A program made the position numbers and the translations under genes. A DNA stretch of 64,000 nucleotides from Proteinivorax hydrogeniformans (lineage in GTDB: Bacteria > Bacillota > Proteinivoracia > Proteinivoracales > Proteinivoracaceae): NCBI RefSeq assembly GCF_040515995.1, contig NZ_CP159485.1, positions 186,001-250,000 of the forward strand, in the 5' to 3' direction. Under the pieces are notes generated by a model. It ran no database searches, had not been told where the DNA came from, and saw nothing but the letters and a program-made list of their open reading frames with translations. Shown here in pieces: positions 43,773-63,329 of this stretch. How positions within the stretch are numbered: the stretch's first letter is position 1; the number at the start of each line of letters is the position of its first letter.

Positions 43773-44513
43773 CTAGCTAGTTCGCACGTGACTTCTATAA
43801 GCGTTGGGAGTCATATCTTTTTGAGCGCAAAAAACCCTGTTGAAATAAGATGGATCAGAAAAACCACACTCAGAGGATATTCGATAAATAGGATAATTAG
43901 TTGTTTCTAGTAGTTTGCAAGCATACTTTACTCTAACCTGTATAATGTATTCAGTAAAGGTTACTTCCATTTCCTTTTTAAAAACTTGGCTGAAATATTT
44001 AGGGCTCATAAATACATGCGAAGCTACCATCTCTAAGGTCAGTTTTTCTTTAAAATGCTCATCAATATAGTCTAGCGATTCCTCGATAAATTTCTTTTTG
44101 TTTTCGCTTGTTGTGCTACTTTCCACTATAGCATTTTGTTGCGGAGCTGCCTGAATTACCTTACGAAACACCTCTTTAAAAGTATCAGGCTTTACAGGTT
44201 TTAAAAGATATTCACTAACTTTAAGGTTTATAGCTTTTTGAGCATATGAAAAATCCGAGTAAGCGGACAAAATCATAATACTAGCATTAGGCAAAAAGTT
44301 TCTGATACCTTCTATAGCGGTCAAACCATCAACTTCCGAAATCATCAAATCCATAATTATAATATTAGGCTTATACTGCTTAGCAAGCTCTACCGCCTTA
44401 AGTCCGCTTTCGCAAGTAAGCACAGTATCATCTGGCAGAAGTTCTTTTTCAACAATGGATTTTAAAAACTCTTGCTCAAGTATTTCGTCTTCAACAATCA
44501 GTACGGTGTTCAT
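43773..44513 (-). CDS. Response regulator with AraC-type DNA-binding domain
   Basis: A 246-residue two-component regulator. The receiver domain has VLIVEDE with acid pair, the phosphorylated aspartate in IIIMDLMISEVDG, and the conserved K in YLLKPVKP. The C-terminal AraC helix-turn-helix pair runs from about residue 145 (MVASHVFMSPKYFSQVFKKE and SECGFSDPSYFNRVFCAQK). Start ATG 44513; it overlaps the kinase gene by 23 bp. Together they are the likely controller of the microcompartment operon, whose start lies 6 kb away. Confidence 0.9.
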   Translation of the reverse strand: MNTVLIVEDEILEQEFLKSIVEKELLPDDTVLTCESGLKAVELAKQYKPNIIIMDLMISEVDGLTAIEGIRNFLPNASIMILSAYSDFSYAQKAINLKVSEYLLKPVKPDTFKEVFRKVIQAAPQQNAIVESSTTSENKKKFIEESLDYIDEHFKEKLTLEMVASHVFMSPKYFSQVFKKEMEVTFTEYIIQVRVKYACKLLETTNYPIYRISSECGFSDPSYFNRVFCAQKDMTPNAYRSHVRTS

Positions 44514-45708
44514 CGCTAGCACCTCTCAATGGTTGGGGCGAGATTTGAATAACTATAGTAGTACCGCTATAATCGGACTTTTCGATCTCCAACCCATAAC
44601 ATTCTCCATAATATTGTTTTAAACGCTTGTTAGTACTTTGAAAACCTAGACCTTTTGGGTAATTTTTCTGTTGTATTTGCTCTAACACGTCTTTGGGGAA
44701 TCCATTGCCATTATCTGCAACAAAGATAGCTACCCCGTTTTTATTATTCTTAGCGTATATACTAATTTTTCCGCCATCGCGACTTTTACTAATTCCGTGG
44801 ATAATGGCATTTTCAACAATGGGTTGAATCACCATATTAGGGATCCTATAGGTTCTTATGTTCTCCGGGAGTTCGATATTATACTCTAATCGATTTTTAA
44901 AACGCATCTTTTGAATATATAGATATTTTTCAATGTTATCAATTTCAGAACCTATGGTGTGTAACTGATCATCCTGTTTTAAATTATACCTAAGCAAATC
45001 AGAAAGACAATAAATAAGCTCCTCAGTTGTATGGGAGTTTTCAAAATATGCGATACGCGCTATACAATTTAAAGTGTTAAACAAAAAATGAGGATTAATA
45101 ACCAAAGACATATTTTTAGCTTCTAAATCTATTATCTTTTTTTCTAATATCTCTTTTTCGATTGAAAGCCTTTCAACTTGAGGGTTAACCTCGTTGACAC
45201 TTTCCGCCAAATCCAAAGAAATATTATTAGCAATATGCCTACATAACTGCTCATGGATTTTTAATTTATTGGGTTCTAGCACTTTTAACGAAGCGATAGA
45301 CTTAGCTATAAACTCTAAATCCAAGTTTTTGCTATCTTTTAAAGACTGGACATCGATAGTATGCTTTTTATACTCTGACCCTTGTTGATATACTTGCATG
45401 CCAGCTACATACCCTAAAGTTTTTTCCTTCACTTTGATTGGTATAAGAATATTTTGAAGTCCATAACTACAAACAAAACTTCCCTCACAATCAGCACCTA
45501 GCTGATTTTTGTAATCAGGACAAGTCTGTCCCTTTTTTTCAAAACAGACATGGCTACAAAAGTCGGGGGGAGGAATAAGCTCATGCAAAAGCTCCCCGCT
45601 GGGGTCAACTAAAAACAAGGAAATATCTGATAAGGATAAAATACCACTGTAACGAGTATATAGTTTTGAAGAGATTAGCTTCCTAAGGGGATTTTCAACT
45701 TCACTCAT
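44491..45708 (-). CDS. PocR-domain sensor histidine kinase (LytS/YesM type)
   Basis: A soluble kinase of about 405 residues without membrane helices. N-terminal PocR-type sensor: SLFLVDPSGELLHELIPPP with four cysteines (FCSHVCFEKKGQTCPDY, DCEGSFVC). A coiled coil follows, then the His_kinase domain with NPHFLFNTLN and GIGFQS-type ATP region (DNGNGFPKDV, GLGFQSTNKRLK). PocR domains sense small molecules such as 1,2-propanediol in the known Pdu system. Start uncertain: ATG 45708 chosen, GTG 45720 possible. Confidence 0.88.
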   Translation of the reverse strand: MSEVENPLRKLISSKLYTRYSGILSLSDISLFLVDPSGELLHELIPPPDFCSHVCFEKKGQTCPDYKNQLGADCEGSFVCSYGLQNILIPIKVKEKTLGYVAGMQVYQQGSEYKKHTIDVQSLKDSKNLDLEFIAKSIASLKVLEPNKLKIHEQLCRHIANNISLDLAESVNEVNPQVERLSIEKEILEKKIIDLEAKNMSLVINPHFLFNTLNCIARIAYFENSHTTEELIYCLSDLLRYNLKQDDQLHTIGSEIDNIEKYLYIQKMRFKNRLEYNIELPENIRTYRIPNMVIQPIVENAIIHGISKSRDGGKISIYAKNNKNGVAIFVADNGNGFPKDVLEQIQQKNYPKGLGFQSTNKRLKQYYGECYGLEIEKSDYSGTTIVIQISPQPLRGASDEHRTDC

Positions 45709-45864
45709 TGGGCAACACACCCCATTTCATATCATAGACTAGATTATAATTAATATTAAAGCTCATATATTTATTTTTAATTCTAATATATAATAGCTAC
45801 AATGTAAACTGTTTAGTAACCCAAATGAAACATCCATTAATTCACAAAGGTTTAAAATATCCTA

Positions 45865-45902
45865 AAAAACACCCCTCAATTAGTTATTAGAGGGGTGTTT
45901 TT
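45865..45902 (-). terminator. Terminator of the alcohol dehydrogenase gene
   Basis: 12-bp stem AAACACCCCTC and GAGGGGTGTTT, with a T run on the minus strand, just after the dehydrogenase stop. Confidence 0.85.
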
Positions 45903-45905
45903 AAA

Positions 45906-47066
45906 CTAAAACCTAGAAGTGTGTCCAAAACATTTTTCTAAAATTTTAACAAGATCTTCTTTGCTTGGCTTTTTAGGATTAGTGGGAGTACATCTATCCT
46001 GCATCGCTGATTTTGCCATCTGCTCTAAAGCATTTTTAAAATCAGACTCCTCAATTCCAAGCGCCTTAATATTGTCTTCGATACCTAATCTTTTCTTTAG
46101 CTTGCGGACTGCATCTATGAAGTTAACTGCCCCTTCGCGCTTTGTCCTAGCAGGGAGCTGTAAAATCTTTGCAAGCTCTGCATATTTTTCAGTAGCGTAA
46201 TCATTAGCGCTACCACTTAAGTTAGCGTTATACTCCATTACCGCATTAAGCATAAGAGCGTTAGACCGTCCGTGAGAGATGTGAAAAGTGCCTCCAAAAG
46301 CATGGGCAAGACTGTGTGTAATACCAAGGCCTGTATTCGTAAAAGCCATACCCGCCATACATGAAGCATTTAGCACATGATCTCGTGCTTTTTCATTTTT
46401 TGTATCGATATATACTGCCTCGAGGTTTTCAAAAATCAACTTAATAGATTTTTCAGCGAGAGCATCGGTAAAGTCTGTTGACTCTGGTGAAACATAGGCC
46501 TCTATTGCATGAACTAAAACATCAATTCCAGTATCCACGGCTACATGTTTAGGCACATGTTGTATGCAAGTAGAATCTAAGATAGCTATATCCGGTGCAA
46601 GCTTTTCATCAATGACACAAATTTTCTCGCCCTCAGATGTGATAACGGAAAAGTCAGTAACCTCTGAACCAGTTCCGCTTGTAGATGGAATAGCTATAAA
46701 CTGCGGTCTGTCAGTATTAGCTCCTTGGACTTTCTCTACTTTCTCAGCAAAATATAATATACCTTTAGCAGTATCTATGGCGGACCCACCACCTAGCGCT
46801 ACGATTATATCGGCATCGCTCTCATTATAAAGTTTTAAACCTTCGGTGACGACTCCGACGTCAGGGTCTGGACGCACCCCGGTAAAAACTTTTGAGCTAA
46901 TATTAGCTTCGCTTAGGTAATCTATAGTTTTTTGCAAATAACCTAGCTTGTCCATAATTGAATCTGCCACAATAAATGCTTTAGACCCTTTTAGCTCCTT
47001 TAGAAGCTGTAAAGATTCAGTGTTGAAATATACCTTTGATTTTAAAATAAATTTATTTGTTTCTAT
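45906..47066 (-). CDS. Iron-containing alcohol dehydrogenase, probable AUA start
   Basis: Group III (iron) alcohol dehydrogenase, 386 residues if read from 47066. NAD site ALGGGSAIDTAKG, IPSTSGTGSEVTDF; iron ligands in DALAEKS..GLGITHSLAHAFGGTFHISHG region. Between the in-frame TAG at 47081-47079 and residue 33 there is no ATG, GTG or TTG, yet the codons read as a proper family N-terminus (NKFILKSKVYFNTESL). AGGAGG (47080-47075) stands 8 bases before an ATA at 47066. ATC 47069 and ATT 47072 are other options. Starting at GTG 46970 would cut off the first strand-helix unit. Probable role: acetaldehyde to ethanol. Confidence 0.85.
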   Translation of the reverse strand: METNKFILKSKVYFNTESLQLLKELKGSKAFIVADSIMDKLGYLQKTIDYLSEANISSKVFTGVRPDPDVGVVTEGLKLYNESDADIIVALGGGSAIDTAKGILYFAEKVEKVQGANTDRPQFIAIPSTSGTGSEVTDFSVITSEGEKICVIDEKLAPDIAILDSTCIQHVPKHVAVDTGIDVLVHAIEAYVSPESTDFTDALAEKSIKLIFENLEAVYIDTKNEKARDHVLNASCMAGMAFTNTGLGITHSLAHAFGGTFHISHGRSNALMLNAVMEYNANLSGSANDYATEKYAELAKILQLPARTKREGAVNFIDAVRKLKKRLGIEDNIKALGIEESDFKNALEQMAKSAMQDRCTPTNPKKPSKEDLVKILEKCFGHTSRF

Positions 47067-47205
47067 GATAATAACCTCCTAAAAAAGATTTGATAGTAAG
47101 TTAAAAAAATCACTAACATTTATACAATATAATAATAACATGTAAGCTATAAAGAGCATTGAAATTAGACCATAACGTTCTAGTACTTTTGTATTTTAGT
47201 AAAAG

Positions 47206-47245
47206 CAGATATTGTACACTATCACAAAATCTTGCACAATATCTG
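47206..47245. promoter_or_regulatory. Inverted repeat in the divergent region
   Basis: CAGATATTGTACA and TGCACAATATCTG (12 of 13 pairs match) with a 14-base gap, between the divergent dehydrogenase and kinase genes. Possible operator; no T run for a terminator. The rest of 47067-47441 is AT-rich without other features besides the promoter at 47319. Confidence 0.45.
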
Positions 47246-47441: not shown

Positions 47442-48356
47442 ATGAAGATGGAAGGAATTATACAAGATAAGCTGCGACGCCTTTTCAATGATGATAGCAT
47501 CGTTTTTGATAAATCAAGATTTATAGGTGGAATGACTAACTATAACTACGTAATGGATATTAAAGGCACAGAATATGTAATCCGTAAACCTGGGGGCATG
47601 ACAGATAAAATGATCGACCGAAAAATAGAGAAGGTCAATAATAGCATAGCCTCAGAAGTAGGAATCAACTCCCAGTGCATTTACTTTGACGATGACACAG
47701 GAATTAAAATTAGCATCTATCTAAAAAACAGTAAAAATATTGCTGTTGCAAACCCAAACTCTCCAAAAAGCATAGCCTCGGTTTCGGAGACGATGAAAAA
47801 AATGCATCAAAGCCCCAAAAAGTTTCCTAATAAATTCGATGTCAAATCTGAACTACATAAATATGAGCAGATAGTTGAACAAATTAACGGAGCGCTTTTT
47901 TTCGATTATCACATTCTAAAAGAAAAACTATTTGCATTTATGGATGAGAATATAAAAAATACTATTTCTGTTCCCTGCCATAATGATACAGTGCCGGAAA
48001 ACTTTGTAATAGCCCAAAAAGGACAAACATATCTGATTGATTGGGAATACGCAGGAATGAATGACCCAAGCTGGGACGTAGCCTCATATATAATAGAATC
48101 TAAGCTCTCCCAACAGTCAATAGAACAACTTGTTTCAGATTACTATGGCGGTCTTTTTAATGAAGAGGAAGAGCTAAAAATCAAATGCTATATGTTAGCT
48201 CAAGATTTGCTATGGACTGTATGGGCGCTGATAAGGCACTATCACGGCGATGACTTTCTTGATTACTGTAATAATAGGTACGAGCGTTTTAGAAAAAATA
48301 TAGACCTGTTAACTTCTTCAACTAACTATCCCATCGAAGAGATGGTACATGTATAG
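47442..48356 (+). CDS. Choline/ethanolamine kinase-like phosphotransferase
   Basis: A 304-residue kinase of the choline-kinase/APH fold, closest in look to LicA. The catalytic loop is CHNDTVPENFV and the metal loop LIDWEYAGMNDPSWDVAS; the N-terminal part shows GGMTNYNYVMDI and EYVIRKPGG. It is expected to phosphorylate choline or a related amino alcohol, which fits the choline compartment 2-3 kb away, although a role in lipid or teichoic acid decoration is as likely. ATG 47442 chosen (ATG 47448 also possible). It has its own terminator. Confidence 0.75.
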   Translation: MKMEGIIQDKLRRLFNDDSIVFDKSRFIGGMTNYNYVMDIKGTEYVIRKPGGMTDKMIDRKIEKVNNSIASEVGINSQCIYFDDDTGIKISIYLKNSKNIAVANPNSPKSIASVSETMKKMHQSPKKFPNKFDVKSELHKYEQIVEQINGALFFDYHILKEKLFAFMDENIKNTISVPCHNDTVPENFVIAQKGQTYLIDWEYAGMNDPSWDVASYIIESKLSQQSIEQLVSDYYGGLFNEEEELKIKCYMLAQDLLWTVWALIRHYHGDDFLDYCNNRYERFRKNIDLLTSSTNYPIEEMVHV

Positions 48357-49305: not shown

Positions 49306-49389
49306 TCCAGACCCAGCAGAATTAGCAGATTTAGAGCATGCCCTTTGACCTAGCAGAATAAGCAAATTTATACGTTTTCGCGGCCAACT
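49306..49389. repeat. Repeat shared with 30174-30262
   Basis: Both copies share TTCCAGACCCAGCA, AATAAGCAAAT and ACGTTTTCG-GGCCAACT in order. TTTATACGTTTTCGCGGCCA (49367) is also the exact reverse complement of the sequence at 30086-30105. Confidence 0.7.
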
Positions 49390-49482: not shown

Positions 49483-49870
49483 TTTGTTTTAGCTATGCCC
49501 CTGACTCTTTTTTCATCCCTTAAATCCAATATGGAAAAAATACTACATTTAAATTTGTGGGTAGAAATTTTACAATTAAACAGTAGAAAAACGCAAAAAA
49601 ATGCTGCAAACCACTGCCCAACTACTGCTATCAAAAGGTTTGCAGTTAAAAACATTGTCGCACTATTCAAAAATAACACATGAGTAAAGTTCAAAAAGAT
49701 AACCAAAGTACAAGATTGTTAAAAAAAGTACAGGATACAATACAACGCAGAAGTTTGTATTGTACCATAGAAAAATGCTGCGCTCAGGTATAATGACATT
49801 AACAACTTAAAAGCGCTTAGTTGGTTACCAGAAAATCTTAGAAAATCCCCTATTTAATATTTCATTTGTT

Positions 49871-49920: not shown

Positions 49921-49975
49921 CAATTTAAGTGCAAAAAATTGCATCTAAATTCCAACAAAAGAGAGGAGTTTGTTC

Positions 49976-51073
49976 ATGAAAAAGAAATCGACAGCGGCTG
50001 CAATTGCTGCAAAGGACAGATTGAAGGCAAGTTTCTTCAAAAAAGGAGTTACCATTGGTTTACTTTCAGGTCTTACTTACGGTTTATTTGCTGCATTTAT
50101 TACCTTAGCTATGCAAAGAGGAATTTGGGGTGACTGGTACGGAGACAACACTGCCGGCTTGTCAACATTTGCAATAGTATTCATCTTAGGAGCTCTAGGA
50201 ACAGCCCTTAACGACATATTAAGTGCTGTATGGGCATTTATCAACTGCGGTAGAAAAGGAAAAATCCAAGATTTCTTTAGAACTCTAAATACAGCACCAG
50301 GGCGTATGCTTATGCTAGCGGCTGTTATGGGTGGTCCGATAGCAAACGTTGCTTATATTATTGGTATCCAGTTAGCTGGATCAATAGCAATTCCAATTAC
50401 TGCTCTTTGCCCAGCAATCGGTGCTATCTTAGGTAGAGTTATATACAAACAAGAGTTAAACAAGCGTATGGCATTAGGAATCATCATCTGTGTTTCTGCA
50501 AGTGTCATAATCGGTAGTGTAGGTATTGGTGGAGATACAGGAGATAGCATAGTGCTAGGACTTGTTATCGCTTTTGTAGCTGCTCTTGGTTGGGGCCTTG
50601 AAGGTGTAATAGCAGGCTTTGGTTCTTCAATGGTTGACACTGAAATCAGTATTACTATCCGTCAGGTAACATCAGGTGTTGCTAACTTCTTAATCTTACT
50701 TCCTATTTTGGGACTTTTAGGTGGCGGCATTACACAACCATTTGTGCTTGCTGGACAAGCTTTTGCTAGTGGTTCCTCTATGATTTGGTTTGCAGTATCA
50801 GGCTTTTTCGCATTCATTTCATTTATGTGGTGGTATAAAGGTAACAGTATGACAGGCGCCGCTATGGGAATGGCAACAAACGGAACTTACTCATTCTTTG
50901 GTCCCCTAAGCTGTTGGGTGCTACTAGGGATAATCATGGGACAAGACGGTTGGAGCCTAACAGCTATAGAATGGTTTGCAGCTGTAACAATGGCAATCGG
51001 TATCTTTGTAATCGCAATGAATCCATTGGACTTATTTAAGAAAAAGGAGGAAGTGCTAGATGAAGCCGCTTAA
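49976..51073 (+). CDS. EamA/DMT-type transporter of the microcompartment operon
   Basis: A 365-residue membrane protein with about 10 helices in two EamA-like halves (for example LMLAAVMGGPIANVAYIIGI and PAIGAILGRVIYKQELNKRM, a DMT signature). ATG 49976 lies seven bases after AGAGGAG; TTG 49970 is in frame but less likely. As first gene of the operon it probably brings in the substrate, presumably choline, but substrate is not shown by the sequence. The end overlaps the next small gene by 14 bp. Confidence 0.8.
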   Translation: MKKKSTAAAIAAKDRLKASFFKKGVTIGLLSGLTYGLFAAFITLAMQRGIWGDWYGDNTAGLSTFAIVFILGALGTALNDILSAVWAFINCGRKGKIQDFFRTLNTAPGRMLMLAAVMGGPIANVAYIIGIQLAGSIAIPITALCPAIGAILGRVIYKQELNKRMALGIIICVSASVIIGSVGIGGDTGDSIVLGLVIAFVAALGWGLEGVIAGFGSSMVDTEISITIRQVTSGVANFLILLPILGLLGGGITQPFVLAGQAFASGSSMIWFAVSGFFAFISFMWWYKGNSMTGAAMGMATNGTYSFFGPLSCWVLLGIIMGQDGWSLTAIEWFAAVTMAIGIFVIAMNPLDLFKKKEEVLDEAA

Positions 51074-52017: not shown

Positions 52018-52088
52018 ACTATAAAACTGCTAAATGCATAGCTTTAAGCAGCAAAAATGGAATCAAAATATGAATGGAGGTATTTGTT

Positions 52089-54635
52089 TTGGATATTCGT
52101 GAATTTTCAACGAAGTTTGCAGAAGCAACAAAACACATGTCCGAAGAAGAACGCAACGCACTAATGAAAGTTTTTGAAGGCATTTCAAAGGACATTTCTC
52201 ATAAAGAAACAACTAACAACATGCAACCACAAACCCAAACAGAGCAACAAGGAATTCCTGATGGGATGACTGAACGTTTAAAAAAGTTAAAGGAGAACTA
52301 TTTTAAGTGGAAGCCAAGTATCAGCATCCATCGTGCTCGTGCAATCACCGAGATTGCTAAAGAAAACCCAGGTATGCCAAAAATTTTATTAAGAGCTAAA
52401 AGTTTCCGTCACAGCTGCGAAACAGCACCTTTAGTTATTCAAGATGATGAGCTAATCGTAGGAGCACCTTGTGGAGCTCCTAGAGCAGGCGCATTTTCAC
52501 CAGATATTGCGTGGCGCTGGTTGGAAAATGAGTTAGATACAGTATCGACACGTCCACAAGATCCTTTCTATCTTTCTGAAGAAGATAAAAAAGAGTTACA
52601 AGAAGACATTTTCCCGTTTTGGAAAGGTCAATCTGTTGATGAGTACTGTGAAGATCAATACCGTGAAGCTGGACTTTGGGAGCTGTCAGGAGAGTCTTTT
52701 GTTTCAGATTGTTCCTACCATCAATTAAATGGCGGTGGCGACTCTAACCCAGGGTATGACGTAATTTTAATGAAAAAAGGCATGATTGACATCCAAAATG
52801 AAGCAAAAGCCAAGTTAGAAGAATTAGAATACGAAAACCCTGAAGATATTGAAAAAATCTACTTCTATAAATCAATTATAGATACAACCGAAGGTGTTAT
52901 GGCTTACGCTAGACGCATGTCAGATTACGCAGCGGAGCTTGCAGCCAAAGAAACCAACCCTAAACGTAAAGCAGAGTTACAGAAAATATCAGAAATTAAC
53001 AGAAAAGTACCAGCTCACAAACCAGAAACATTCTGGGAAGCAGTTCAAGCTGTATGGACCATTGAATCTCTACTTGTTGTAGAGGAGAACCAAACAGGTA
53101 TGTCCATAGGTCGTGTTGACCAATACATGTACCCATTTTTTAAAGCTGATATTGAAAATGGAAGAATGACTGAGTGTGAAGCATTTGAACTAGCTGGTTG
53201 TATGCTAATTAAAATGTCTGAGATGATGTGGCTTACCAGTCAGGAAGCTTCAGAGTTTTTTGCAGGCTATCAACCTTTTGTTAATATGTGTGTTGGTGGT
53301 GTGACCAGAGAAGGACTTGATGCTACTAACGATTTAACTTATCTTCTAATGGATGCTGTAAGGCATGTTAAAATTTATCAACCTACGCTGGCTACCCGTA
53401 TCCATAGCCAATCACCTAAAAAGTATCTAAAGAAAATTGTAGACGTTGTTCGCTCTGGGATGGGCTTTCCAGCTTGTCACTTCGACGATGTTCACATAAA
53501 GATGATGTTAGCAAAGGGTGTTTCTATAGAAGATGCTCGTGACTACTGTCTAATGGGCTGCGTTGAGCCACAAAAGTCAGGTCGCTTATACCAATGGACA
53601 TCTACAGCTTATACTCAATGGCCTATCGCCATAGAACTAGCTATGAACAATGGAGTGCCACAGTGGTATGGCAAAAAAGTCACCCCGGACTTTGGTGACG
53701 TAGACCAGTACAAAACTTATGAAGAGTTTGACAACGCTGTTAAAGAGCAAATCAAATATATTACCAAACTAACCAGCGTGGCAACTGTGATCTCGCAACG
53801 AGTTCATAGAGACCTTGCTCCTAAGCCGCTAATGTCGATAATGTACGAAGGTTGTATGGAAAACGGCAAGGATGTATCCTCTGGCGGAGCTATGTATAAC
53901 TTCGGTCCTGGAGTTGTCTGGAGTGGACTAGCCACATACGTAGATTCAATGGCTGCCATTAAAAAGCTTGTATTCGATGAGAAAAAATACACTCTAAAAC
54001 AGTTAAACGAAGCTTTAAAAGCTGATTTTGCAGGCTGCGAACAACTTAGAAACGATTGCTTAAAAGCGCCAAAGTATGGTAACGACGAAGACTATGCAGA
54101 TCTAATCGCTGCTGACCTAGTTAACTTTACAGAGACAGAACACCGTAAATTTAGAACACTTTACTCTGTGTTATGTCATGGTACCCTGTCTATCTCTAAC
54201 AACACACCATTTGGTCAGCTAACCGGTGCCACTGCAAACGGTAGAAAAGCTTGGGCTCCACTATCTGATGGAATTAGTCCTTCCCAAGGGGCAGACTTTA
54301 AAGGACCTACAGCTATAATCAAATCTGTTTCCAAAATGGCGTGCGACAGCATGAACCTAGGTATGGTTCACAACTTCAAGCTAATGAGTGGGCTTTTAGA
54401 TACCCCAGAAGGCGAACAAGGAATCATCACACTGCTACGTACCGCTAACATGTTAGGTGTTGGAGAAATGCAGTTTAACTATCTAGATAACGAAACTCTA
54501 ATAGCAGCTCAGAAAAACCCTGAGCAATATAGAGACCTAATAGTTAGGGTTGCTGGATATAGTGCATTCTTTGTTGAGCTTTGTAAAGACGTGCAAGATG
54601 AAATAATCAGTAGAACTGTGCTTGACAAGTTTTAG
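52089..54635 (+). CDS. cutC: Choline trimethylamine-lyase (glycyl radical enzyme)
   Basis: Glycyl-radical enzyme that splits choline to trimethylamine and acetaldehyde inside the compartment; 848 residues (type I CutC is about 846). Catalytic residues: Cys491 and Glu493 in GCVEPQ, glycyl radical Gly823 in RVAGYSAFF, and the choline pocket Tyr210 and Asp218 in [12 protein letters not shown]. Each is exactly two positions later than in the Desulfovibrio enzyme (208, 216, 489, 491, 821). I choose TTG 52089, eight bases after GGAGG, giving [17 protein letters not shown] 52074 overlaps the ribosome site. The N-terminal amphipathic part may target the shell. Confidence 0.95.
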
Positions 54636-54708: not shown

Positions 54709-55656
54709 ATGCATAACAACGCTAGTACCAATCAAGAAAAAGCATGGATATTTAACACTCAAAAATACAATATGTATGATGGTCCTGGTATTAGGACGTT
54801 AGTGTTTTTTAAAGGCTGTCCCCTGAGGTGTAAGTGGTGTTCCAACCCCGAGGGATTAGAACAAAAACACCAAATCATGTATAAAAGTGACTTGTGTACA
54901 AACTGTGGTGCTTGTGTTTCAGCCTGTCCCGTTGGGATTCATTCTATCAACAACGAAGGCAAACACGAAATAAATCGCAACATTGACTGTATAGGCTGCC
55001 GCAAATGCATGGACAGTTGTATCGAAGATGCTATCTCTGTAGTAGGAGAGAAAAAAACCGTAGATGAGCTATTAGAAATCATAGAAGAAGACGAAGCATT
55101 TTACACTATTTCTGGCGGTGGTGTCACCTTAGGTGGTGGCGAAGCTCTAATGCAGCCAGAGTTTGCACAAAAGCTATTAAAGACCTGTAAACAGGAGGGC
55201 ATAAATACAGCCGTTGAAACCTGTGGATATACAAAACCAGAATCAATTATGGAAGTTGCTAAGTTTACCGACTTATTCTTATATGACCTTAAACACATTG
55301 ACCCAGATAAGCACTTCCAATATACAAACGTGAAAAACGAAGTTATTTTAGAAAACCTAAAATCCCTTCTAAACAACGGTCACAACGTAAAAGTAAGAAT
55401 GCCGATGCTAAAAGGTGTAAACGATAGCGAATCTGAGATTCAAAGAGTTATAGACTTTTTAATGCCGTACCGTAACCATCAAAACTTTAAGGGAATCGAT
55501 CTACTTCCTTATCACAAAATGGGTGTAAATAAATACAACCAGCTAGATATGGATTACCAGATTAAAGGTGAGCTAGCCTTAAGTGAACAAGAGCTAGACA
55601 AAATAGAGTCTTTAATTAGTAGATATGACTTTCCAGTTTCGATAATAAGGCATTAG
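54709..55656 (+). CDS. cutD: Choline trimethylamine-lyase activating enzyme (radical SAM)
   Basis: Radical SAM activase that makes the glycyl radical on CutC; 315 residues. The SAM cluster motif CxxxCxxC is CPLRCKWC with cysteines 37, 41 and 44. An inserted ferredoxin-like part carries two more [4Fe-4S] sites (CTNCGACVSACPVG and CIGCRKCMDSC). Later parts GGGVTLGGGEALMQ and YDLKHIDPDKH are typical of this activase family. ATG 54709 follows GGGAG. Confidence 0.95.
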   Translation: MHNNASTNQEKAWIFNTQKYNMYDGPGIRTLVFFKGCPLRCKWCSNPEGLEQKHQIMYKSDLCTNCGACVSACPVGIHSINNEGKHEINRNIDCIGCRKCMDSCIEDAISVVGEKKTVDELLEIIEEDEAFYTISGGGVTLGGGEALMQPEFAQKLLKTCKQEGINTAVETCGYTKPESIMEVAKFTDLFLYDLKHIDPDKHFQYTNVKNEVILENLKSLLNNGHNVKVRMPMLKGVNDSESEIQRVIDFLMPYRNHQNFKGIDLLPYHKMGVNKYNQLDMDYQIKGELALSEQELDKIESLISRYDFPVSIIRH

Positions 55657-61820: not shown

Positions 61821-63329
61821 TTGCAAAATCTAGATAAAGACTTACGTTCGGTACAAGAAGCAAGGGATCTTGCCAAACGTGGTAAGATAGCTACAGATCA
61901 AATTGCCGAATTTACCGAAGAACAAATAGACAAGATCTTATGCAACATGGTTAAAGTTGCAAAAGAGAACGCAGTTCGACTAGCGCGCATGGCGGTAGAA
62001 GAAACTGGTTTTGGTAAAGTTGAAGATAAAACTTACAAAAACCATATGGCATCAGTGTTACTATATGAAGCTATAAAGGACATGAAAACAGTCGGTGTAA
62101 TTAGCGAGGACCATAACAAGCAGGTGCTTGACATAGCTGAACCTATGGGACTACTAATGGGAATTGTTCCTTCAACTAACCCAACATCAACTGCTATCTA
62201 TAAATCAATGATAGCGATAAAATCCAGAAATGGAATTGTGTTTTCTCCACACCCTGCAGCTCTTAAGTGCACAAAAGAAGCGGTAGACTTAATGCACAAT
62301 GCAGCCGTAGAAGCTGGCGCTCCAGCTAACATTATCAGCACAATAGTAACACCATCTATCGAAGCAACAAATGAGCTGATGAAGCATGAGCATATTTCCA
62401 TGATCATCGCAACTGGTGGTCCAGGTATGGTTAAGGCTTCATATAGCGCAGGCAAACCTGCTCTAGGTGTTGGCGCTGGTAACTCACCAGCATATATCGA
62501 AAGAACTGCCAACATCCCAAAAGCAGTAAGTAACATTCTAGCAAGTAAAACATTTGACTATGGCACGATCTGTTCATCGGAACAGTCAATTATCGTAGAA
62601 GAGTGTAACCAAGCAGCAGTAGTTGCAGAGCTAAAAAAACAAGGCGCATACTTTATGACAGCAGAAGAAACCAAGAAAGTTTGCGGTCTGTTATTTAGAA
62701 ACGGTCACATCATGAACGCTAAATTTGTCGGCAGAAGCCCCCAAGTTATAGCGCAAGCTGCCCAAATTTCAATCCCTGAAAACACAAAAGTGTTAATCGG
62801 CGAGCAACAAGGTGTAGGAAAAGGTTACCCACTATCTTACGAAAAACTAACCTCAGTGTTAGCTTTCTATACAGTAAAAGATTGGGTTGAGGCGTGTGAA
62901 CTCAGCATTGAGCTTTTACAAAATGGTATTGGACATACCATGAGTATTCACACAGAGGATAGAGACAAGGTTATGAAGTTTGCCTCAAAACCAGCATCTC
63001 GTATCCTAGTAAATACAGGTGGAACTCAAGGATCTACAGGTGGTAGCACCGGTCTTTTACCAGCGTTTACTCTAGGGTGCGGTACATGGGGTGGAAGCTC
63101 AACCTCTGAAAACGTAAGCCCTGAGCACCTAATTAACATCAAAAGAGTTGCATATGGAATAAAAGAATGTAGCACATTAGCTTCTAGCGATTCTAGCTTT
63201 AACTATCCTGAGCTTAATAACGTAGCAAAAAGTAGCAACTGTTTTGCTAGCCCATCAATAGATACCGACAATGAAAAGGTTCTAAAGCTAGTAAATGAGC
63301 TAGTAAATGCTATGAAGGGAGTTAGCTAA
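61821..63329 (+). CDS. CoA-acylating aldehyde dehydrogenase (EutE/PduP-like)
   Basis: Converts acetaldehyde plus CoA and NAD+ to acetyl-CoA; 502 residues. Catalytic Cys251 in GTICSSEQS; NAD part IIATGGPGMVKA and ALGVGAGNSPAYIER. The N-terminus (DLRSVQEARDLAKRGKI) is an amphipathic encapsulation peptide. The C-terminal ~45 residues, with NEKVLKLVNELVNAMKG, form a second such helix after a linker. TTG 61821 follows GGGGGG; no better start is nearby. Confidence 0.93.
   Translation: MQNLDKDLRSVQEARDLAKRGKIATDQIAEFTEEQIDKILCNMVKVAKENAVRLARMAVEETGFGKVEDKTYKNHMASVLLYEAIKDMKTVGVISEDHNKQVLDIAEPMGLLMGIVPSTNPTSTAIYKSMIAIKSRNGIVFSPHPAALKCTKEAVDLMHNAAVEAGAPANIISTIVTPSIEATNELMKHEHISMIIATGGPGMVKASYSAGKPALGVGAGNSPAYIERTANIPKAVSNILASKTFDYGTICSSEQSIIVEECNQAAVVAELKKQGAYFMTAEETKKVCGLLFRNGHIMNAKFVGRSPQVIAQAAQISIPENTKVLIGEQQGVGKGYPLSYEKLTSVLAFYTVKDWVEACELSIELLQNGIGHTMSIHTEDRDKVMKFASKPASRILVNTGGTQGSTGGSTGLLPAFTLGCGTWGGSSTSENVSPEHLINIKRVAYGIKECSTLASSDSSFNYPELNNVAKSSNCFASPSIDTDNEKVLKLVNELVNAMKGVS

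Follow-up and report, generated by a model that had tools for sequence, protein, structure and literature searches.

Evidence for a probable, conserved AUA start codon in a choline-microcompartment alcohol dehydrogenase gene of Proteinivorax hydrogeniformans

The window analyzed here, a 64,000-nt stretch of the Proteinivorax hydrogeniformans genome (contig NZ_CP159485.1, positions 186,001 to 250,000), contains a choline-utilization (cut) locus, the features of which are collected in Table 1. Besides CutC, CutD and an acetylating acetaldehyde dehydrogenase, the locus encodes EutP-, EutJ- and EutQ-like proteins and BMC-shell proteins. The gene under study lies on the minus strand, and both Pfam and NCBIfam identify its product as an iron-containing alcohol dehydrogenase (ADH) close to the ADH half of AdhE, with scores above the Pfam gathering score for PF25137 (211 bits, cut-off 27) as well as PF00465 (144 bits, cut-off 31.3). 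Four residues, D182, H186, H251 and H265, are invariant in the ADH alignment and compose the Asp/His/His/His set that we take, from family knowledge (FucO), to be the metal ligands. Because it is encoded together with CutC, CutD, the acetylating dehydrogenase and BMC shell proteins, we assign this ADH to the CutO type of a choline trimethylamine-lyase (CutC/CutD) microcompartment locus, with a predicted role in acetaldehyde reduction and a predicted encapsulation. In this genus and in Clostridiales, the ADH gene forms a separate unit that is divergent from a choline-kinase-like gene and is followed by the genes for a PocR kinase and an AraC regulator; in Desulforamulus-like species and in enterococci, it is found inside an operon with the order ALDH-ADH-CutC.

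Table 1. Features of the ADH gene and the surrounding cut locus, in window coordinates
Feature	Position	Strand	Remarks
AraC-type response regulator	43773..44522	-	
PocR-domain LytS-type sensor histidine kinase	44491..45720	-	Synteny shared with the sister species and with Clostridiales
Intrinsic-terminator-like hairpin with T run	45864..45900	-	Directly 3' of the ADH gene; putative, read from sequence
CutO-type iron-containing alcohol dehydrogenase CDS	45906..47066	-	386 aa, from the putative AUA start to the stop
ATA, putative start codon	47064..47066	-	Homologous to the ATG of Clostridiales orthologues
ATC, second-best candidate start	47067..47069	-	5 nt from the Shine-Dalgarno sequence; also kept in sister species
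Shine-Dalgarno sequence AGGAGG	47075..47080	-	Overlaps the in-frame TAG; duplex -12.0 kcal/mol with an assumed 16S tail
Extended -10-like element TGTTATTAT	47132..47140	-	Predicted ADH-unit promoter; resembles TGNTATNAT in the majority of 11 species
Conserved upstream block ATACAAAAGTAC...TTCAAT	47158..47194	-	Candidate site for the adjacent AraC-type regulator, from alignment
Inverted repeat CAGATATTGTGCA...TGTACAATATCTG	47206..47245	-	Candidate operator
Choline/ethanolamine-kinase-like gene	47442..48356	+	Divergent from ADH
EamA/DMT-family permease-like protein	49970..51073	+	PF00892 just under cut-off
CutC choline trimethylamine-lyase	52074..54635	+	TIGR04394 1651 bits, cut-off 1050
CutD activating enzyme	54709..55656	+	TIGR04395 537 bits, cut-off 360
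Acetylating acetaldehyde dehydrogenase of the cut locus	61821..63329	+	TIGR02518 767 bits, cut-off 620

Within the genus, our comparison rests on two genomes, the second species (G001, hereafter the sister species) being represented by a single-contig genome. When the two loci are set side by side, the EamA-CutC-CutD block (from about 49685 of the window onward, compared with the sister sequence L057) shows 87% DNA identity, and CutC 98.6% protein identity, unlike the ADH, kinase and regulator, which reach only ~72%. This mosaic boundary near 49685 was probably created by recombination or transfer. We also observed a 41-bp intergenic sequence (window 49347-49387) that is present in the sister genome as three copies spaced ~455 bp apart, elsewhere and on the other strand (L057, 4002-4953).

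The start of the ADH gene reads ...TTTTT TAG GAG GTT ATT ATC ATA GAA ACA AAT AAA TTT... on the minus strand, in a frame that stays open between 47078 and the stop at 45906. The first-pass annotation, which did not recognize the choline-utilization microcompartment context, had described a gene lacking a usual start codon between the in-frame TAG and GTG 46970 although preceded by AGGAGG, and re-reading of the frame bore this out: there is no ATG, GTG or TTG from the TAG (47081-47079) to GTG 46970, and CTG is absent too. The first usual start codon, GTG 46970, is thus found 36 codons into the open frame, whereas in the other genuine genes of the window the first start codon occurs at most 16 codons past the upstream stop, the ADH gene being the sole exception. 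The proposed 8-base spacing also proved correct, with AGGAGG (47080-47075) followed by TTATTATC and then by ATA 47066-47064, an arrangement that is singular in the window since only 1 of its 27 AGGAGG sites, counted on both strands, has an ATH codon at 8 nt. Apart from this ATA, the interval from the stop to the family N terminus has just two near-cognate codons, ATC and ATT, 5 and 2 nt from the Shine-Dalgarno (SD) sequence, respectively. As for the extent given to the feature, its end at 45906 stands while its upstream limit does not, position 47080 belonging to the SD sequence rather than to a coding sequence that begins at the ATA. The SD itself is of ordinary strength for the genome (its score is equaled or exceeded by 19 of 48 other genes), and we therefore rejected the idea that an unusually strong SD compensates for the start codon.

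A broad search uncovered ADH orthologues that do bear an ATG; samples of the classes Bacilli and Clostridia yielded no further close ADH orthologues, and a single-sequence scan of genome contigs gave no matches. The nearest ATG-bearing orthologues, from Clostridiales (L159-L162), display GGAGG-8 nt-ATG-GAA where the window has GGAGG-8 nt-ATA-GAA. A conserved Phe is preceded by the ATG at a distance of four codons in Clostridiales, and by the ATA at four codons in the sister species and five in the window, which has one inserted codon. The ADH tree groups the two species together (100/99) within a larger clade (95/95) that contains the ATG-bearing Clostridiales. Since the nearest orthologues have ATG at the homologous codon and at the same SD spacing, the simplest account is a single ATG-to-ATA change before the two species split, and the same homology supports the rare AUA start that had been suggested for this gene. 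From these comparisons, we conclude that translation very probably begins with a codon other than AUG, AUA 47066 being the most probable one, where an ancestral ATG has changed, in a CutO-type gene that is under purifying selection. It is unlikely that the true start is instead AUC 47069 (or AUU 47072), which would leave the explanation otherwise unchanged. ATT, ATC and ATA are all near-cognate and all kept in the sister species, and in Caloramator and in L167 the ATG is followed by ATA-GAT, resembling ATC-ATA-GAT, but ATC and ATT are closer to the SD than the 7-8 nt seen in ATG orthologues, and codon-wise alignment pairs the ATC-ATG-GAA of Clostridiales with ATC-ATA-GAA in the window, placing the ancestral ATG at the ATA.

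The sister species provides a strong comparison for the AUA start. Its ADH is 73% identical, the order of the genes around it is preserved, the leader sequence is AAGGGGGTAATTATC-ATA-GAT-AAC-ACG-TTT, and no usual start codon is present at the ADH start. The stretch ATTATCATAGA is identical in both species, and the SD duplex is again -12.0 kcal/mol. In two species, therefore, the gene combines the absence of a usual start with an AUH codon (AUA, AUU or AUC) at normal SD spacing, and the suggestion that ATG had been mutated to ATA in this strain falls, because the sister species carries the same ATTATC-ATA-GA. We also considered stop-codon readthrough from a 20-codon upstream frame (MLLLYCINVSDFFNLLSNLF, TAG) and rejected it, the corresponding frame in the sister species having TAG TGA and no such peptide.

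Could the change from ATG to ATA be degenerative, the ADH gene being dead or dying and its weak start purposeless? Of 61,358 ancestral AUG starts, a single one was reported to have switched to AUU and not one to have become AUA (PMC5622118), so that a retained AUA is rare and changes of this kind are normally purged. Moreover, the sister species has the longer ADH branch (0.30 vs. 0.11), its gene evolving faster, which makes relaxed constraint possible. We nevertheless consider this explanation improbable, because a dead gene would not retain its full frame, metal-ligand residues, SD sequence and promoter blocks, all of which are kept across a synonymous distance that is saturated (pS 0.78 vs. 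pN 0.17 for the whole ADH).

Still less credible is a start at GTG 46970 or ATG 46955, with the upstream part untranslated, although GTG 46970 is the first usual start and the one that a gene finder limited to ATG, GTG and TTG would call. The residues ahead of GTG 46970 are conserved ADH family sequence, and a start there would therefore cost ~32 residues and cut into the first Rossmann strand. Codons 2-33 display a pS of 0.94 and a pN of 0.32 between the two species, and this segment is thus constrained as translated protein. In addition, the sister species has GTA in place of GTG 46970, no SD at a suitable distance can be read ahead of this GTG, and its use would leave the conserved SD at 47080 without a start. 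Finally, a sequencing or assembly error at 47064, which has nothing in its favor beyond the rarity of the codon, can be dismissed, since the same ATA is found in the separate single-contig genome of another species and the two genomes of the genus agree.

Upstream of the AUA start, the elements between 47132 and 47245 constitute a candidate operator for the PocR kinase/AraC regulator encoded next to the ADH gene. In an alignment of 11 species, the inverted repeat is conserved as TATTGTNCAA...TTGTACAAT, and the block at 47194-47158 is conserved as well. Transcription of the ADH gene is probably set by this adjacent two-component system, the sensor kinase and AraC-type regulator probably controlling the gene's own promoter. 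A 5' hairpin sequestering the SD, which a conserved block, AGTGATTTTTTT.ACTTAC, together with a single A-U to U-A change, had suggested, is unsupported, and the folding energy of the leader is no different from that of shuffled sequences (z -0.67 and -0.08).

A non-AUG start may also be found in more distant orthologues. None of the five Enterococcaceae orthologues found, nor the one from another Lactobacillales genome (L154-L158 and L171, 55-60% identical to the window ADH), has an ATG start. Instead, they display ATT, ATA, ATT, ATA, ATC and ATA, in that order, exactly 8 nt past a GAGG or GGAG and four codons before the same Phe. These six sequences form their own clade in the ADH tree (99/97), and the loss of AUG would therefore be separate from that in the genus, or older. 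It could be argued that these orthologues start at GTG and that the AUH codon is an internal Ile, since in every one of them an in-frame GTG shares bases with the SD (GAGGTG or GGAGTG). In L158 and L171, this GTG is part of a GTGA in which the ALDH gene ends, and in L171 an additional GTG immediately precedes the ATA. However, the GTG has no SD of its own, the existing SD would otherwise serve nothing, and the AUH codon sits exactly at the Met position of orthologues. On this comparison, we regard AUH initiation in the Lactobacillales orthologues as likely, so that the non-AUG start probably arose a second time in this gene, in enterococci.

How would translation from AUA 47066 proceed? The AGGAGG 8 nt upstream would position the ribosome on this codon, which would be decoded by the ordinary CAU initiator tRNA via a third-position mismatch. 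A special tRNA reading AUA through a UAU anticodon was rejected, as none is present among the tRNAs typed, which represent most, but not all, of 56 tRNA matches. The AUA start would be weak and, like other AUH starts, presumably disfavored by IF3, the factor that rejects such non-AUG codons (PMC5472188). The family lineage already uses AUH initiation, since the only start codons available near the strong SD of infC are of the ATT type in each of the five family genomes (L067-L071). In Staphylococcus aureus, AUA starts are experimentally supported for infC, ccpN and citZ, the non-canonical start of ccpN is conserved between S. aureus and Bacillus subtilis, and the AUA/AUU starts of ccpN, citZ and cvfC1 give ~10% of AUG output, ccpN reaching up to 30% in rich medium (PMC13009471). 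By analogy, a weak start would cap CutO translationally and restrain the reduction of acetaldehyde to ethanol relative to CutC and the acetylating dehydrogenase. The proposal that the AUA start lowers expression on purpose is one that we would extend to this gene because the start is retained across species, apparently recurs in Lactobacillales and belongs to a class that has been reported to lower output (PMC13009471). Initiation at AUA itself, a lowered yield, IF3 sensitivity and a selective purpose are thus what we infer. More tentatively, the choline-microcompartment ADH may have lost AUG at least two times, within this genus and before the enterococcal clade diversified, in favor of AUA, AUU or AUC at a fixed 8 nt, as selection would keep translation weak or coupled to IF3 or growth state, thereby holding back the ethanol branch compared with CutC and acetaldehyde dehydrogenase.

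To our knowledge, conserved non-AUG starts in bacteria are few and belong mostly to regulatory or housekeeping genes (infC, pcnB, ccpN, sigR). Such starts are already known, in infC and ccpN and in S. aureus citZ, and what is new is the window ADH as a further example. Like the ADH, S. aureus ccpN and citZ have their AUA 3' of an SD at normal spacing (PMC13009471), but they encode a gluconeogenesis repressor and a strain-lineage citrate synthase, whereas the window gene encodes a putative microcompartment ADH, and its SD is ordinary in strength. With infC (AUU in Escherichia coli, AUA in S. aureus), the ADH gene shares a conserved AUH start with an SD; however, infC is autoregulated through IF3, a logic that has no counterpart in the ADH. 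Streptomyces sigR is likewise a single gene with a non-canonical start, which lowers its yield, but the codon is GTC rather than AUA, it sets a sigma/anti-sigma stoichiometry and it was shown to be repressed by IF3 (PMC5472188). In gene content, the closest parallel is the CutO of the GRM2 choline microcompartments of Klebsiella, an ADH that is also encoded with CutC/CutD, an aldehyde dehydrogenase and BMC shell genes (PMC6971018), although the window ADH stands apart as a divergent unit that has a PocR kinase/AraC regulator to itself, and has a non-AUG start. In practical terms, gene finders limited to ATG, GTG and TTG would shorten the window ADH by 32 residues. More broadly, a metabolic enzyme whose AUA start is retained in more than one species, and whose orthologues in a second lineage follow the same pattern, would lend itself naturally to testing whether start-codon strength sets the stoichiometry of microcompartment enzymes.
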